From NCBI RefSeq assembly GCF_900111255.1, contig NZ_FOGP01000003.1, forward strand, positions 1 through 64,000: 64,000 bases of DNA. The letters are read 5' to 3'. The DNA is from Parafannyhessea umbonata (GTDB taxonomy: Bacteria > Actinomycetota > Coriobacteriia > Coriobacteriales > Atopobiaceae). Shown here one piece after another: positions 1,493-9,737 of this stretch; position 1 is the first letter of the stretch; each line of letters begins with the position of its first letter. A program made the position numbers and the translations under genes. Under the pieces are notes generated by a model that saw only the letters and a list, made by a program, of their open reading frames with translations, was not told where the DNA came from and made no database searches.

Positions 1493-1503
1493 CGAGAAGT
1501 ACC
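1493..1503 (-). repeat. 3' motif copy 1 (GGTACTTCTCG) at the hisI stop
   Basis: On the coding strand the motif GGTACTTCTCG starts on the last base of the hisI stop codon. It is one of six copies of GGYACTTCTYG or a close variant found just downstream of genes, each in the orientation of the gene it follows. Confidence 0.5.
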
Positions 1504-1898
1504 TAGCCCTCGCGCCTGATGGCGCGGAACATGCAGCTGCGGTGCCCGGTGTGGCAGGCGGGACCCGGCGAGTCGACGACAGCCAGCAGCGTGTCGCCGT
1601 CGCAGTCGACCAGGAGCGCCTTAAGCTGCTGCACGTTGCCCGAGGTGGCACCCTTGTTCCAGAGCTCCGAGCGGCTGCGCGACCAGAACCAGGTCGTGCC
1701 CGTCTGAAGCGTCAGGCGCAGCGACTCCTGGTTCATCCACGCAACCATGAGCACCTCGCCGGTGCCGTGCTGCTGGACCACGCAGGGCACAAGCCCCCTT
1801 TGGTCGAACTTGATGCCCGCGGCGTCGAGGTCGACCAGCTCGAGCGGCTCTCCCGCGTAGCACAGCTTCGCATCCGATGGCAAAGTCTCGTCTGACAT
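1503..1898 (-). CDS. hisI: Phosphoribosyl-AMP cyclohydrolase
   Basis: Hydrolyses the adenine ring of PR-AMP, the third step of histidine synthesis. The 131-aa protein shows the metal-binding DCDGD and the [13 protein letters not shown] block with its conserved Cys and His. It has only the cyclohydrolase domain: no phosphoribosyl-ATP pyrophosphatase (HisE) domain is attached and no separate hisE lies in the window. It is the last gene of the his operon, 26 bases after hisF, with AGAGAAGGG six bases before the ATG. Confidence 0.95.
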
Positions 1899-1924
1899 GG
1901 CATGCCCTTCTCTCTAGAAGCCTC

Positions 1925-2692
1925 TTAGAAGTCCAGGCGCACGGGAATGCCCTGTGACGCCATGTACTCCTTGACTTGGCGGATCGAGAACGTGCCGAAG
2001 TGGAAGACCGATGCGGCCAGGACCGCGTCCGCCTCGCCCTCGATGATGCCCTCGGCAAAGTGCTCGAGCGTGCCGACGCCACCCGAGGCGATGACGGGGA
2101 TGGGGACGGCGCGGGCCACGGCGCGCGTCAGGGCGAGGTCGAAACCCTCCTTGGTGCCATCACGGTCCATGCTAGTCAGCAGGATCTCGCCAGCGCCGCG
2201 ACGCGCGGCCTCCGTGGCCCATTCGACGGCGTCGATGCCGGTGGCAACACGACCGCCCGCCAGGTAGACCTCCCACTTGTCGACCGTACCCTGGCGCTTT
2301 GCGTCGATCGCGCAGATGACCGCCTGGCTGCCGAAGGCCGTGGCGGCCGCGGTAATGAGCGCGGGGTCCTTGATGGCCGCGGAGTTGACGGACACCTTGT
2401 CCGCACCGACCGAGATCATCTTGCGCATGCCCGCGACGTCGCGAAAGCCACCTCCCACGGTGTAGGGAATGCGCAGCTCCTGGGCTGCGCGGCTGGCAAG
2501 GTCAATGGTCGTCCTGCGATCGTCCGAGGTCGCCGTGATGTCGAGGAAGACGACCTCGTCAGCGCCCTCCCGGTCGTAGACGCGCGCGAGCTCGACGGGG
2601 TCGCCGGCATCGCGCAGGTCGACGAAGTTGACGCCCTTGACGACGCGACCGTCCTTCACGTCCAGGCAGGGTATGACTCGCTTGGTAAGCAT
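1925..2692 (-). CDS. hisF: Imidazole glycerol phosphate synthase, cyclase subunit
   Basis: Partner of HisH. It closes the imidazole ring, using ammonia delivered from HisH, to give IGP and AICAR. The 255-aa TIM barrel begins [20 protein letters not shown], carrying the catalytic Asp of the CLDV motif. It holds the phosphate-binding VGGGFRD and [11 protein letters not shown] segments and the second catalytic Asp in LLTSMDRDG. The start is supported by AAGGAG four bases upstream. It follows hisA by 11 bases. Confidence 0.97.
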
Positions 2693-2703
2693 GTGGCTCC
2701 TTC

Positions 2704-3441
2704 CTACAGGGCCGCCGCGAGGGCATCCTCGAGCGTGAAGTTCCCCTCGTAGAGTGCGCGGCCGGTGATGGCCCCCTCGATCACGTCGTTGCCGGCGGCG
2801 GCACAGGCGCGGATGTCGTCCAGGCTCGCAATGCCGCCCGAGGCGACCACCGGGAAGCCCGCGACGCGCGAGATGCGCCGGTACGCCTCGACGTCGATGC
2901 CCGTCTGCATGCCGTCACGGGCGATGTCGGTATAGACGAGGTGCCTGAAGCCCTGGTCGCGCAGGTCTGCGACGAGGGTCTCGGCCGAGACGCCTTCGCC
3001 CTCGCGCCAGCCGTCGACGCGCACCTCGCCGTCGCGGGCGGCGACATCGGCCACCACGTAGTCGGCGAAGTCGCGGGCGGCAGCCTCGCTGAAGGCGGGG
3101 TCGCGCACGAGCGCCGTGCCGATGGCGATGCGCTTGGCGCCGGCGTCGACCAGACGCTCGATTGCCGCCATGTCACGCACGCCGCCGCCGGTGTCCACAC
3201 TTATCCCCTCGACGGAGCAGATTGCGGCAATGGCGCGCGCATTCTTCTGCCTCGCGTCGGCGTCCTCGCGAAAGGCCGCCGAAAGGTCGACGACGTGGAC
3301 CCAGTGGGCACCGCGCGCCGCGAAGTCGCGCGCGACGGCCACCGGGTCGTCGGAGTAAACGTCCATCTTCGAGCGGTCGCCGCGCTGCAGGCGCACCACC
3401 TGGCCGGCAACCAGGTCGATTGCGGGAAAGAGAATCACCAC
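2704..3441 (-). CDS. hisA: ProFAR isomerase (HisA)
   Basis: Amadori-type isomerisation of ProFAR to PRFAR, the substrate of HisHF. The 245-aa TIM barrel starts [18 protein letters not shown] with catalytic Asp in AIDL. It shows [20 protein letters not shown] (second catalytic Asp) and [13 protein letters not shown]. Translation starts at a GTG whose first base is the last base of the hisH TAG stop, so the two genes are coupled. Other actinobacteria use a bifunctional HisA/TrpF (PriA); whether this protein also has TrpF activity cannot be told from sequence alone. Confidence 0.95.
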
Positions 3442-4118
3442 TACCCCCTGACGACGTTAACGAAGTTGTGCAGGATGACCTTGCCCGTACGCGAGGACTT
3501 CTCGGGATGGAACTGCACTCCAAAGACGTTGTCGGCCCACACGCCAGACGCGAAGCTGCGCGCGTAGTGCGTGACGGTCGCGACGATGCCGGGGTCGACG
3601 TCGTCGTCAAGCGCGTAGGAGTGCGTGAAGTAGAGGTTGGCGCCCTCGGGAACGTCCACGAACAGCGGGCAGCGATGGCCGTGGTCGGTCATGTGCGCCT
3701 GGTCCCAGCCCACGTGGGGCACTTTGAGTCGCGTCGACTCCAGGCGCGTTGCCGAGCCCTTAAGCAGACCCAGGCCACTCACCCACTGGTCGTCACCCGC
3801 CGCCTTGTCCGCGTCCCCGGATTCGGCCGAGCGCTCGTTGCCACGCTCGAACAGCAAGTGAAGTCCCAGGCAGATGCCCAGGAAGGGTTTGCCGGCCCGC
3901 ACGGCCTCGACCACGGCGTCGGCCTGGCCGGACTCGCGCATGTAGGCCATCGCGTCCTCGAAGGCACCGACGCCCGGCAGGATGACGGCGCGCGCGGCAG
4001 CGATGTCGACGGGGTCGTCAGACACGCAGACGCTGCCACCCACCTCGTCGACCGCGCGGGCGACGCTCTGCAGGTTTCCCTTGTGGTAGTCGACCACCAC
4101 GATGTCGCCGCTCAGCAT
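3441..4118 (-). CDS. hisH: Imidazole glycerol phosphate synthase, glutamine amidotransferase subunit
   Basis: Class I glutaminase that feeds ammonia to HisF. The 225-aa protein carries the nucleophile in FLGICLGLHLLFE and the His/Glu pair in GVQFHPEKSS. The sequence starts [15 protein letters not shown], typical for HisH. The ATG overlaps the hisB TAA stop by one base (TAATG) and the stop overlaps the hisA GTG by one base. A loop of about 10 residues rich in Asp, Glu and Ser (around residues 95-110) is slightly longer than usual. Confidence 0.97.
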   Translation of the reverse strand: MLSGDIVVVDYHKGNLQSVARAVDEVGGSVCVSDDPVDIAAARAVILPGVGAFEDAMAYMRESGQADAVVEAVRAGKPFLGICLGLHLLFERGNERSAESGDADKAAGDDQWVSGLGLLKGSATRLESTRLKVPHVGWDQAHMTDHGHRCPLFVDVPEGANLYFTHSYALDDDVDPGIVATVTHYARSFASGVWADNVFGVQFHPEKSSRTGKVILHNFVNVVRG

Positions 4119-4705
4119 TAGAGGCTCCCCTTGGTCGACGGGATGTCATCGTTTCTTGGATCGAACTCGACGGCGGCGCGCAGCGCACGGGCAACCGCCT
4201 TGAAGGCGCACTCGAGCGTGTGGTGCGCGTTCTGCCCGGCAATCTTGCGCACGTGCAGGGTGATGCCCGCGTCGCGTGCGAAGCCCGCGAAGAACTCGTG
4301 GCCGAGCTCGGTGTCGAAGTTGCCCACCTTCTGAGCTTCGATGGGAACGTCCCAGTAGAGCTCACCGCGGCCGCTGATATCGATGGCCGCAAGCACCAGC
4401 GCCTCGTCCATGGGAACCGTCGCATCCGAGAAGCGCTTGATGCCGCGCTTGTCGCCCAGGGCCTGGGCCACGGCCTGTCCCAGCACGATGCCCACGTCCT
4501 CCACGGTATGGTGGTCGTCCACCCAGGTGTCGCCCTCGGCGCGGACGCTCAGGTCACACAGCGAGTGGCGACCCAGTGCGTTGAGCATGTGGTCGAAGAA
4601 GCCCACTCCCGTCTGGATGTCGCAGCTCCCGCTGCCGTCCAGGTCGATCGTGACCGTGATGTCGGTCTCCCCCGTCGTGCGGGAGACGGTTGCGATGCGA
4701 TCCAT
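4118..4705 (-). CDS. hisB: Imidazoleglycerol-phosphate dehydratase
   Basis: Mn-dependent dehydration of IGP to imidazole acetol phosphate. The 195-aa monofunctional form has the two metal-binding repeats [11 protein letters not shown] and [12 protein letters not shown], plus GVGFFDHML. There is no N-terminal histidinol-phosphatase domain, so that enzyme must be encoded elsewhere. The frame stays open 28 codons upstream, but the ATG in TAATG, overlapping the hisC stop, gives the family-like N-terminus [15 protein letters not shown] and is chosen. Confidence 0.96.
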
Positions 4706-5805
4706 TAGCGCTCCTCTCCAACAAGCGTCGACAGTGCGTCGAGCACGGCGTCGTTTTCCTCCGGCGTGCCCACGGTGATGCGCAGGCACCCCTCAAGACC
4801 CGGCGCGGACGAGAAGTCCCTCACCAGGATAGAGAACTCGTCCCTTAGGCGGCGGCGCACCCGAGCCGCATCGGGCACACGCACCAGCATGAAGTTGGCC
4901 TCGCTGGGCCACACGCGCACGCCACGGGAGGCCAGCTGGCCCAGCCCCTGGGCAAGACGTTCGCGCTCCTCGCGGATCTTCTGGATCGTGGGCTCGAACG
5001 ACGCGCGGCCGCGCACCGCCGCGAGCGCCGCGGCCTGCGAGTACACGTTGACCGAATAGGGCTGGCGCACCGCGGCCAGCGCGCCGGAAATGGAGGGGCT
5101 GCACAGCAGGTAGCCAATGCGCGCGCCCGCCAGGCAAAACGCCTTCGACAGCGTGTGCAGGACGGCAAGGTTCTCGAACTCGCCCAGAAGCGGCGCGGCG
5201 CTCGAGCCCTCGGGGGCAAACTCCATGTAGGCCTCGTCCAACAGGACGATGCCGGGGCACGCCTGGCAGAGCCGGCGCGCGTCCTCGACAGAGAACAGGT
5301 CGCCCGTGGGGTTGTTGGGCGAGGTGACTATCACCAGGCTCGCCGTGCGCGCCGCCTCGACCAGAGCGTCAACGTCGATCGCGAACGTGTCGCTGTCACG
5401 CGGGACGTCGACCACCTGGGTCTCGACCAACTCTGCGTACAGGCGGTAGACCGTAAACGTCGGCGGCACGTTGGCCAGCACGTGACCTTGCCCGCCAAAG
5501 GCAAGAAACAGGTTAAAGAGCAGCTCGTCGCCACCGTTGCCCACGATCACCTGCGATGGGGCAACACCGTGCCACGCAGCGAGCTCAGCGCGCAGCTCGT
5601 CCGAGAGCGGCTGCGGGTAGCGGTTGGCGCTCACCGCGCACAGCGCCTCGTTCACCTTTGCGCGCACGTCATCGGGCATTCCATAGGTGTTCTCGTTGGC
5701 CGAAAGGTTGATGCGCGACGGCGTGAACGCAGGGTCGTATGGCTCGAGGGCCGCCGCACTCGGGCGCATGGCCGCGCGGATGCTGTCTGATATTGCTTGG
5801 GACAT
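4705..5805 (-). CDS. hisC: Histidinol-phosphate aminotransferase
   Basis: PLP-dependent transamination of imidazole acetol phosphate with glutamate. The 366-aa protein shows the fold-type I landmarks [26 protein letters not shown] and the Schiff-base Lys in [16 protein letters not shown]. The start [17 protein letters not shown] is set by a near-perfect AGGAGGTCACCACAG leader. The frame is also open for 27 codons upstream to a GTG, with a composition unlike the family, so this extension is rejected. It lies 96 bases after hisD and overlaps hisB by one base. Confidence 0.96.
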
Positions 5806-5874
5806 CTGTGGTGACCTCCTTGTGGGCGTCTGGTCGCATCGTGGGCTCCCTCGCCGCATCCCCTCGACCTTCGC

Positions 5875-5885
5875 CGAGAAGTGCA
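5875..5885 (-). repeat. 3' motif copy 2 (TGCACTTCTCG) after hisD
   Basis: It lies 16 bases past the hisD stop, inside the only long gap of the his operon (hisD-hisC), and is oriented with the operon. It differs from the commonest form at the first base. Confidence 0.45.
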
Positions 5886-5901
5886 CGCGGCCGTCGTCGT
5901 C

Positions 5902-7287
5902 CTACAGCCTGGGCACGCCCGGTTCGTCGAGCTTGCGGGGCCAGGCGCACTCCATGGCACCCTCACAGGCCTTGGCGGAGTCCGCGAACGCCTGACCGCC
6001 CTCGTCAAGCAACCTCATGCGCATGCCGACGGAGAGCGCGTGCGCCCAGAGCCCCTCGGCCTGAGCCATCGCCTGGACGGCGGGACCGTCGGCGCGCAGT
6101 CCCTCGGGACTGTAGCTGATGACGCTCGAGCGCTTGGTGAAGTCATACACGCCCAGGGGGCTCGAGAACCTGGCCGTGCCACCGGTGGGCAGCGTGTGGT
6201 TGGGACCGGCAACGTAGTCGCCCAGGGGCTCAGAGCTCCAGGCGCCCACGAAGATCGCGCCTGCGTTGCGCACCTTGCCCACGAGCGAAAACGCATCCGC
6301 GCAGTGAAGCTCGAGGTGCTCGGGCGCGACGACGTTCATCGCGTCGATGGCCTCGTCGAGCGTGTCGCACACCACGATCAGACCGTTGTCGTCGAGCGAG
6401 GCGCGCGTGATCTTCTCGCGCGGGCTCTGCGAGACCAGCGCCTCGACCGCCTGGAGCACGCGGCCGGGAAGCTCCTCGTCGCAGGTCACCAGGTAGCAGG
6501 CTGCCATGGGGTCGTGCTCTGCCTGCGCCATGAGGTCGGCCGCAACCACCGCGGGGTCGGCCGTGGCATCGGCGAGGATGCCGACCTCGGAGGGGCCGGC
6601 AACCATGTCGATCCCGACGTCTCCGGACACGTAGCGCTTGGCGGCGGCGACGAACGCGTTGCCGGGACCCACGATCTTCTCGACCGCAGGAATGGATTCG
6701 GTGCCATAGGCGGCCGCGGCGATTGCCTGGGCACCCCCCACCGCGTAGACCTCGTCGACGCCAGCGACGGCCGCGGCGGCGAGGGTGTAGGCGGAAAGCG
6801 AGCCGTCGCGCTGGCGCGGGGTCAGCATGACCACGCGCTCGACGCCGGCGACCTTGGCGGGGATGGAGTCCATGAGGACCGTGGACGGGTACTGGGCGCG
6901 CCCGCCGGGAACGTAGAGCGCCGCCGAGGCGACGGGGGTCACCTTGACGCCCAGGACGGTCCCGTTGGGGCGCGTCATGAACCAGGACTCCTCACGCTCG
7001 CGCTGGTGGAACTCCTCGATCTGCGCGGCGGCCTTCTTGAGCGCCGCGAGGAACTCGGGGTCGACCATGTCGAGCGCACCCTGGATGACAGACTCGTCGA
7101 CGCGGAAGCTCTGGGGGCAGGCCCCGTCGAACTTCAGACAATAGTCGCGCACCGCCTGGTCGCCGCCCTCGCGCACGGCATCCACGATGGCCTGGGCGGA
7201 CTCCATGACCTCGCGGGGCAGGGCACCCTCGCGACGGAGCTCGTCCTTGGTAAGCTGCTGGCCGGCAGAAAGCCTAACGGTCCTCAT
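5902..7287 (-). CDS. hisD: Histidinol dehydrogenase
   Basis: Zn- and NAD-dependent four-electron oxidation of histidinol to histidine, the last two steps of the pathway. The 461-aa protein carries YVPGGRAQYPSTVLM, VGPGNAFVAAAKR, GPSEVGILAD and the substrate/metal block DYVAGPNHTLPTGGTARF. It is about 30 residues longer than many homologues, the excess being a C-terminal tail (ECAWPRKLDEPGVPRL). The ATG, with AGGGGAG upstream, lies 14 bases inside the end of the fused hisZG gene, implying translational coupling. Confidence 0.96.
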   Translation of the reverse strand: MRTVRLSAGQQLTKDELRREGALPREVMESAQAIVDAVREGGDQAVRDYCLKFDGACPQSFRVDESVIQGALDMVDPEFLAALKKAAAQIEEFHQREREESWFMTRPNGTVLGVKVTPVASAALYVPGGRAQYPSTVLMDSIPAKVAGVERVVMLTPRQRDGSLSAYTLAAAAVAGVDEVYAVGGAQAIAAAAYGTESIPAVEKIVGPGNAFVAAAKRYVSGDVGIDMVAGPSEVGILADATADPAVVAADLMAQAEHDPMAACYLVTCDEELPGRVLQAVEALVSQSPREKITRASLDDNGLIVVCDTLDEAIDAMNVVAPEHLELHCADAFSLVGKVRNAGAIFVGAWSSEPLGDYVAGPNHTLPTGGTARFSSPLGVYDFTKRSSVISYSPEGLRADGPAVQAMAQAEGLWAHALSVGMRMRLLDEGGQAFADSAKACEGAMECAWPRKLDEPGVPRL

Positions 7288-8953
7288 TGCTGCTCCCCTC
7301 TTGCGCGCAGGCGCGCTGGAGCCTCTGGGCCAGGTCGCGGATGCGCTCGTCGGAGCGATAGGCCGCCGGACCTGCGAAGAAGCGTGCGGTACATTCCATT
7401 ACCTCGTCGACGACGACGAGGTCGTTCTCCCTGAGCGTGGTCCCCGTGGCGGTGATGTCCACCAGGCGGTCCGTCATGCCGACGATGGGGCCAAGCTCGA
7501 TGTTTCCGTGCAGCTGGACGATGTCGACCTGCTGTCCGATGGAGTCGTAGTAGTTCTGGGTGATGCGCGGGTACTTGGTCGCCACGCGCACGCTGCCACG
7601 CCACGCCGCCGCGGCGTCGGCGTCGCCGGCCTTGCTCGCGGGCTCTGCCACGACGAAACGGCAGGCGCCAAAGTGCAGGTCGACCAGCTGGAGCACGTCG
7701 ATGCCGGCCTCGATGATGGAGTCGTTGCCGCAGATGCCGCAGTCGGCGCCGCCGTGGCCCACGAAGACCGGAGCGTCCTGGGCGCGCACGATGACATACT
7801 CGACGCCCTCGGCGGGAATGATCAGCCTACGACCGGGGTCGCGCAGCTCGTCGACGGGAAGGCCCGCCCGCTCGAGCAGGCGCACGGCGTCCTTGAAGAG
7901 GCCGCCCTTGGGAACCGCGATGCGCAGCGGGCGCTCGGCGTTTCGGGCGCGCGCCGAGACGACGCCAGACTCGCCCTGCTCGCCCAGGACCTCCTGCATG
8001 CATTCGAGCGAGAGCGCAAAGCCGCAGGACGCCACGTCGGGACGGCCCAAGTTCGCCAGGACCGCGTCATAGCGCCCGCCCGAGGCGATGGAGGCAGTCG
8101 TGGCCTCGGAGTACGCCTTGAACACGACGCCCGTGTAGTAGTCGAACGAGTTGATGATCGAGAAGTCAAAGGTCAGACGCTGCTTGGCCCTGGCATCGAG
8201 GCCGGCCACGAGCTCGCGAAGCTCGCGCGTGCCGCGCTCTTCCTCTGCGACGCCCGCCCGGCCCAGCAGCTCGTCGATCTGGTCGAGCACGTCGGCGTCG
8301 CCCGCCAGGCGGCAGATGCCGTGCAGGGCGCTCGCGGCGACGGGAGCCAAGCTCCCCGCCGCGTCAATCAGCTCGTCGAGGCCCACCAGGTCGGAGCCGT
8401 GTACAAGCTCCATCGCCCGGGCTCGGAACTCCTCGCTGGGAGCCGTCGCATCGAGCAGCGCCTTGAGCGGCGTCACCGAGCCGCAGACGATCTTCCACGC
8501 GGGAACCCTCAGGGCAGCAAGCGTCTCGGCCAGAAGGGAGATGACCTCGACCTCGGGGGCAATCCCCTCTCCGCCAAAGAGCTCGACGCCCAGCTGCGTG
8601 AACTGGCGCGGCTGACCCTTGAGCGTGGACTCCTCGCGCACCACCGGCGCGGCGTAACGCAGGCGAACCGGGAGCGACCCGTCCGAGAAGCGCGTGGACA
8701 CCATGCGCGCGATGGGCAGTGTCAGGTCGGGGCGCAGCACCAGCAGGCTGCCGTCGACGTCGAAGAGCTGGAACGGGGTGTTCTGCAGACGGCCGCCACG
8801 GTCGAGCACGGCACGGTCCTCCAGCAGCGGCGTCTCGACGGGAAGGTACCCATGGGACGAGAAGCACGACCTCACGGTCTGCGTGATTCGTTCGCGTGCA
8901 AGGGCCTCGGTGGGAAGGATGTCCCTAAAGCCCCTGGGAGTCCTGGCTAGCAA
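7274..8953 (-). CDS. hisZG: Fused HisZ-HisG: ATP phosphoribosyltransferase, regulatory plus catalytic subunits
   Basis: First enzyme of histidine synthesis (ATP + PRPP to PR-ATP). In one 559-aa frame, a HisRS-like regulatory HisZ domain occupies about residues 3-323 (TPRGFRDILPTEA, LRPDLTLPIARM, REESTLKGQPRQFTQLGVE, FDYYTGVVF, IASGGRYDAVL). After a linker of about 18 residues comes a short-form HisG domain at about 342-553 (LRIAVPKGGLFKDAV, VGHGGADCGICGNDSI, DITATGTTLRENDL). Short-form HisG lacks its own histidine-binding domain and needs HisZ, so the fusion joins obligate partners. The TTG start at 8953 is preferred: it has AGAGGAG six bases upstream and gives a family-like N-terminus. An in-frame GTG at 9019 has poor spacing. 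It heads the operon and overlaps hisD by 14 bases. Confidence 0.93.
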   Translation of the reverse strand: MLARTPRGFRDILPTEALARERITQTVRSCFSSHGYLPVETPLLEDRAVLDRGGRLQNTPFQLFDVDGSLLVLRPDLTLPIARMVSTRFSDGSLPVRLRYAAPVVREESTLKGQPRQFTQLGVELFGGEGIAPEVEVISLLAETLAALRVPAWKIVCGSVTPLKALLDATAPSEEFRARAMELVHGSDLVGLDELIDAAGSLAPVAASALHGICRLAGDADVLDQIDELLGRAGVAEEERGTRELRELVAGLDARAKQRLTFDFSIINSFDYYTGVVFKAYSEATTASIASGGRYDAVLANLGRPDVASCGFALSLECMQEVLGEQGESGVVSARARNAERPLRIAVPKGGLFKDAVRLLERAGLPVDELRDPGRRLIIPAEGVEYVIVRAQDAPVFVGHGGADCGICGNDSIIEAGIDVLQLVDLHFGACRFVVAEPASKAGDADAAAAWRGSVRVATKYPRITQNYYDSIGQQVDIVQLHGNIELGPIVGMTDRLVDITATGTTLRENDLVVVDEVMECTARFFAGPAAYRSDERIRDLAQRLQRACAQEGSSNEDR

Positions 8954-9035: not shown

Positions 9036-9055
9036 CACTTTAGCGTGCTACAGTG
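9036..9055. promoter_or_regulatory. Imperfect palindrome upstream of the his operon (operator candidate 1)
   Basis: CACTTTAG-CGTG-CTACAGTG: eight-base arms with one mismatch and a four-base centre. It shares ACTTTAGYGTG with the perfect palindrome about 33 bp farther upstream, so the two look like a tandem pair of binding sites for one dimeric regulator, roughly three helical turns apart. Confidence 0.5.
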
Positions 9056-9066
9056 CTTGTGATGGA

Positions 9067-9090
9067 GGTACTTTATCACACTAAAGTACC
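9067..9090. promoter_or_regulatory. Perfect palindrome upstream of the his operon (operator candidate 2)
   Basis: GGTACTTTA and TAAAGTACC form perfect nine-base arms around a six-base centre. A possible -10 hexamer TATATT (minus strand) lies about 20 bases upstream. The position, before the first his gene, suggests a histidine- or tryptophan-repressor-like operator. The regulator is not in the window. Confidence 0.6.
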
Positions 9091-9239
9091 CGGCAGTGCA
9101 CCTGATTGAAGAATATACGAGCAGGAAACAAAGGAATGGAAGCGTTACCTGTTTGCCACGTTGAGCCGCGTTTTCTCCGCCAGCGGCGGTCGGCGCCGAA
9201 GTCCGACGCGCTTCGGGGGGCGGGCCCGGGCGACGAGCC

Positions 9240-9736
9240 CTAGCGGCAGATGTCGGCGAACTGGGCGCCGATGAAATCCGCAAGCTCCTCGGGGTTGAGG
9301 CGAAGCGAGATGCCACGCCTGCCACCCGAGATGCCAATCTGGTCGAACAGCTGGGCGGTCTCGTCAATAAGTGTGGGGAACTGCTTCTTCATGCCCACGG
9401 GCGTGCAGCCGCCGCGAACGTAGCCGGTGGTGGGCTCGAGGTCCTTCATGTGCATCATCGAGAGGCTCTTCTCGCCCGCCGCCGCAGCCGCCTTCTTCAG
9501 GTCGAGCTCCTCGGCCACCGGGACGCAGCACACGACGTGCCCGCCGGAGGGCGTGACGGTCACCAGGGTCTTGAACGCGGATTCGGGGTCCTCCCCCAGC
9601 ATCTCCGAGATGCGCACGCCAACGCCAGTCGAAAGGTCCTCGTTGTCGGCGTCGTAGCTCTGGAGCTCGTACGAGATGCCCCCGCGCTCCAGCTCTCGCA
9701 TCGCGTTGGTCTTCTGGACCTTCTCCTTCTTCGCCA

Positions 9737-9737
<1 letters not shown>
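9240..9737 (-). CDS. ybaK: Cys-tRNA(Pro)/Cys-tRNA(Cys) deacylase, YbaK/EbsC family
   Basis: Trans-editing hydrolase that clears mischarged Cys-tRNA(Pro). The 165-aa protein has the family signature stretches KTNAMRELERGGISYELQSY, SAFKTLVT, CVPVAEELDLKKAAAA and GYVRGGCTPVGMKK, the last containing the conserved Lys/Gly/Cys pocket. It starts at a GTG that overlaps the uvrA TAG stop by one base, so it is translationally coupled to uvrA, an unusual pairing with a repair gene. Confidence 0.9.

Follow-up and report, generated by a model that had tools for sequence, protein, structure and literature searches.

A minus-strand histidine biosynthesis operon lies within the DNA that we analysed, a 64-kb stretch referred to below as the window. 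The first gene of the operon is hisZG, and two palindromes, A and B, are found upstream of it. The features of the locus are as follows.

1503–7287, minus strand: hisD, hisC, hisB, hisH, hisA, hisF and hisI, open reading frames in operon order
7274–8953, minus strand: hisZG, with Pfam tRNA-synt_His (HisZ-like) and HisG domains
9036–9055, minus strand: palindrome B, candidate second HisR operator, matrix score 27.4, without an extended −10 TG in the orientation of the genes
9067–9090, minus strand: palindrome A, candidate primary HisR operator, with a 20-bp core at 9069–9088; the top motif match in the window
9070–9078, minus strand: candidate extended −10 element, TGATAAAGT, within palindrome A, at its putative position
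9112–9117, minus strand: TATATT, an earlier −10 candidate, matching TATAAT at 5 of 6 positions; weakly conserved

The his operon and its upstream palindromes

The likely start of hisZG is the TTG at 8953, which is preceded by GAGGAG, and the proteins of relatives align from about this TTG. The Pfam check was applied to hisZG; the his genes that follow were named by eye from their translations. No hisE gene, for phosphoribosyl-ATP pyrophosphatase, was found in the whole genome with TIGR03188 or PF01503. A MazG-family frame with two matches (contig C5, 26045–26647) is a candidate hisE stand-in. Directly upstream of the operon, also on the minus strand, a gene at 9240–9737 encodes an aminoacyl-tRNA editing domain (PF04073).

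Both palindromes reported in the initial annotation are present with the arm and gap lengths given there. Palindrome A, GGTACTTTATCACACTAAAGTACC, checked in the window, is a perfect 9+6+9 inverted repeat; palindrome B, CACTTTAG-CGTG-CTACAGTG, is an 8+4+8 repeat with one mismatched pair. Their centres, at 9078.5 and 9045.5, are 33 bp apart. The sequence ACTTTAGYGTG, said to be common to the two, is indeed found in each, on opposite strands: the minus strand in A and the plus strand in B.

Bare palindromes are common in this DNA. That is, the window holds nine perfect matches with 9-bp arms and gaps of 3 to 8, some of them nested. The specific sequence is rare, as follows. The pattern ACTTTA-N6-TAAAGT has one exact match in the 2.06-Mb genome, which is A, and one match with a single mismatch, which is B. 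A loose form of the motif allowing three mismatches was discarded as noise, with 121 genome matches against 161 for a reversed control.

HisR and the conservation of its operator

Ashniev et al. reported in 2022 that HisR, a TrpR-family regulator of the YerC type, has the operator consensus cacTTTAnnnnnnTAAAgtg in Coriobacteriales and Eggerthellales (PMC9413887); HisR is also named in PMC3828012. As described in the former, HisR occurs in 22 Actinobacteria genomes of these orders, 20 of which have the his operon, hisXYZ* and hisR as targets, and histidine-dependent operator binding is reported for the HisR of Ruminococcus gnavus (PMC9413887). Palindrome A matches the consensus at 8/8 of its upper-case positions and B at 7/8, which places both within the published motif.

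The whole genome contains a single TrpR-family gene over the Pfam cut-off, on contig C3 (PF01371, 73 bits). Its product passes the YerC/YecD model TIGR02531 (82.3 against a cut-off of 42.2) and fails the TrpR equivalog model TIGR01321 (26 bits against 67.25); related solved structures are 3frw, 3kor and 3g1c. The TrpR motif, TGTAcTnGTnnACnAgTACA, differs from the HisR operator (PMC9413887).

For scoring, we used a symmetric matrix derived from 60 upstream sites, the window's excluded. The site threshold of 9.8 was set from simulated 300-nt upstreams, as the 99.9% quantile of their best scores. In the window, A scores 33.1 and B 27.4, ranking first and second, and the third-best match scores 5.4. 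The hisR gene of this genome has an operator of its own, TGCTTTAATACGGTAAAGCG, which starts 74 nt before the ATG and scores 18.1; a motif search before a TrpR/HisR-like gene, as the initial annotation had proposed, thus finds a site. Operators are present in 23 of 30 hisR upstreams, this genome's included (45 hisR places in 44 genomes yielded these 30 loci). A weaker site, scoring 10.3, precedes a hisX-like gene; searched with the operator-linked hisX of a relative, the genome gives this gene as its best match (64–67% identical).

Phylogenetic footprinting, another of the proposed checks, bears out the primary operator: a site at or above the threshold is found in 65 of 79 hisZG upstreams, window included, although for the non-window loci the scoring is partly circular, since 60 of the 79 upstreams supplied the matrix. 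The same comparison gives a second spaced site in only 9 of the 65. The 79 upstreams comprise 79 of 80 named loci and the window's, minus one duplicate (L127), with L144 excluded for a match beginning at query residue 21. The 80 named loci were those ranked best among 82, and could lack some near relatives of the window; by title most come from Olsenella and other Atopobiaceae. Many of these relatives are close kin, so the upstream counts are not independent. A scan of 101 genomes of the family, with that of the window among them, found the exact core pattern 93 times, spread over 56 genomes; the reversed control turned up five times, in five genomes.

The site also goes together with the regulator. 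Among hisZG genomes of the family, it is present in 25 of 26 with HisR and in none of four without. In all 45 hisZG genomes considered (46 minus G050, overlapping in part with the 79 upstreams), with 450 nt searched, 35 of 37 with HisR carry the site, as do three of eight without a detected HisR; these three are all order-level relatives, and two are less than 90% complete. Fourteen named loci are site-less, eight of them in HisR-encoding genomes. In two of these eight the site lies at a greater distance upstream (L134 at −386 and L146 at −564), and in the other six none was found within about 1.5 kb. Three HisR-encoding loci without an operator within about 1.5 kb of hisZG (L103, L115 and L116) share an upstream stretch, TTTTGAAAGCAGACTGTAACGGCTTG.

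Because they match the published consensus, because sites precede hisR, and because site and HisR co-occur, A and B are very probably HisR operators, here as candidates from sequence comparison. HisR, its operator and its three-target regulon are already known, and the operator consensus, the regulator family and the three targets of the regulon in PMC9413887 are the same as those in this genome; A and B accordingly read as an ordinary pair of HisR operators. Names can now be given to the regulator and motif that were left unnamed in the initial annotation, and the window is tied to a published regulon.

The expectation of a DNA-binding repressor instead of a T-box agrees with the presence of a HisR gene, the operator match and the conserved sites. 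T-boxes control his operons in other Gram-positive bacteria (PMC9413887). In the window, no Rfam family, T-box included, scores at or above its gathering cut-off, in keeping with the initial annotation, and no T-box was found at that level in the loci of the 14 site-less relatives, where Rfam, run there and on two other loci, returned one tRNA only. The palindromes, as inverted repeats near an operon, could nevertheless be thought to act as RNA hairpins in the leader of the operon, for attenuation or termination. Such a role is scarcely credible in view of the Rfam result for the window, of a conservation that extends to the sequence itself beyond its pairing, of related motifs before hisR and hisX, and of the co-occurrence of the site with a TrpR-family gene. 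It is also very unlikely that another palindrome-binding regulator, not HisR, reads the sites: the six HisR-encoding relatives without a site before hisZG would fit this idea, and it is opposed by the match to the published HisR motif, the sites before hisR and the pairing of site and HisR across genomes.

The promoter and the proposed mode of repression

Within the operator, an element of the type TGnTAAAGT is found in the orientation of the genes in 60 of the 65 primary hisZG sites, and the mirror-image CA form in one. Since the matrix is symmetric, this orientation bias does not derive from the search. The TG is at the same place in 11 of 13 order-level his sites and in only one of 23 hisR-upstream sites. 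It is therefore probably not a requirement of HisR but a feature of the promoter, and the contrast between his and hisR operators suggests that his repression probably proceeds by promoter occlusion. An operator-embedded −10 would be a concrete, testable mode of repression.

Likeness to a −35 element, taken over spacers wholly outside the operator, peaks at a spacer of 16 bp, with a mean of 1.97 of 6 and the next value at 1.77, a modest signal. In the window, neither candidate −10 has a −35 of at least four matches at normal spacing, so that the his transcript start, which we place near 9063, is a position by inference. From that start, B would extend from about +9 to +28. In the site-less upstreams, TGnTAnnnT persists in 6 of 14, whereas 200 simulated rounds gave a mean of 1.05 and a maximum of 4; since these loci are related to one another, a real residual element is suggestive only.

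Two sites are present in 10 of the 65 upstreams, nine with a spacing of 27–34 bp and one at 8 bp. At the 0.1% threshold, well under one second spaced site is expected by chance. The nine spaced pairs have no helical phasing (Rayleigh p about 0.71, n = 9). The distance of about three helical turns in the initial annotation is thus not supported as a meaningful spacing. B does not hold up as a conserved partner of A, since only those 9 of the 65 upstreams have a second spaced site, and in neither of the two same-genus genomes does one rise above the threshold. In the nine pairs the TG is present in the upstream site in eight cases and in the downstream site in none, which is consistent with a promoter operator followed by a downstream accessory operator. 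L039, which is outside the nine-pair set, has TG in both sites.

For the his operon of the window, we consider it highly likely from these comparisons that A and B are HisR operators, with histidine-bound HisR on A blocking the promoter and B as an accessory. The following is our inference for HisR binding and its histidine dependence in this organism, for where transcription starts and for what B does. When histidine is plentiful, histidine-bound HisR, encoded on contig C3, would occupy A. As A contains the putative extended −10 of the his promoter, RNA polymerase would be blocked. B, just 3′ of the presumed start, would act as an accessory operator, probably by making repression tighter or by blocking early transcription.

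The alternatives to this arrangement concern where the promoter is and what B does. TATATT (9117–9112), which the initial annotation had taken as the −10, is indeed upstream of both palindromes, and a promoter there would start near 9105, leaving A and B in the leader with HisR as a roadblock to elongation. With 5 of 6 matches to TATAAT, the hexamer is better than TAAAGT with 4 of 6; in the relative L021 this offset is occupied by TTTATT; and the average likeness to TATAAT shows a slight rise there, to 1.67 (1.68 two bases further up, and about 1.0–1.4 at most other offsets). However, a hexamer of at least four matches to TATAAT occurs at this offset in only 4 of 60 anchored upstreams, window's included, TATATT has no −35 of at least four matches at normal spacing, and there would be no explanation for the oriented TG of the his operators, which 22 of 23 hisR operators lack. 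A TATATT promoter is therefore unlikely. There is a somewhat better case, though still a minority one, for A as the sole operator and B as a functionless chance occurrence or decaying copy: B-like sites are missing in most relatives, and the spacings are without helical phase. On the other hand, the B score of 27.4 is far above the null, and second spaced sites are seen well beyond the chance expectation. We retain the reading in which B is an accessory operator to the promoter operator A.

Operator layouts and other candidate targets

A different double arrangement is found in more distant relatives. In 9 of 13 site-bearing order-level relatives, a second frame with a score above 0 lies exactly 8 bp upstream of the first, and shifts of 5, 6, 7, 9, 10 and 11 give 0 of 13. 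In the family of the window, the shift of 8 is found in 0 of 25. Overlapping operators of this kind upstream of hisZG were noted in L053, L055–L058 and L061–L064, and also in L146 and in the Slackia/Eggerthellaceae loci L140, L141 and L143, being weak in two of these last three. In the clearest overlaps, the two sites join into an extended palindrome with the pattern CACTTTAGCA-N8-TGCTAAAGTG.

The step of tandem TrpR binding is 8 bp, unlike the window's pair, which lies 33 bp apart. E. coli TrpR belongs to the same protein family as HisR and follows the same end-product co-repressor logic (PMC8745587). On synthetic operators, TrpR dimers can sit in tandem pairs (PMC8745587), and the 8-bp overlap in the distant relatives resembles this arrangement. 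The HisR sites of PMC9413887 are described as 20-bp palindromes, whereas the window has a spaced pair. We did not find HisR sites that overlap or come in pairs, or an embedded −10, mentioned in the main text of that paper, and its supplementary lists may have them; the double site and the −10 inside the operator are, in our view, modest additions.

It is tempting to propose, although we hold this at somewhat less than even chances, that his regulation in Coriobacteriia centres on a promoter-operator with the −10 inside the palindrome, which may have been repeatedly rebuilt: as two repressor dimers stacked on overlapping sites with an 8-bp offset in Eggerthellaceae-like genomes, as one site alone in most Atopobiaceae, and as a spaced pair, with a promoter site and an accessory site downstream of it, in the window and a few others. 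If true, the layouts would be a natural series for the change of a TrpR-family protein from stacked to spaced binding. Three operator layouts in one bacterial class would allow a comparison of how amino-acid repressors tune their binding.

Some further sites were seen outside the his operon. In L179 (genome G019), two exact mirror-image cores 29 bp apart lie at about 1500–1550 before a hisX-like gene; a spaced-pair layout is thus also found before a transporter gene. A site scoring 15.5 before a TrpP-like transporter gene (contig C4, 48230–48772) was set aside as due to chance or private to this genome, since just 2 of 21 loci, from 17 genomes, have a site, and both are the genome's own (L231–L234 re-read a gene already counted). 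Two sites near an ABC-transporter gene (contig C3, 168583 and 168670) were rejected for their low scores, 2.6 and −4.5. Also on contig C3, a HisR-like site scoring 17.1, at 150991–151008 (L008), is located just before a gene for a FeoA-domain protein.
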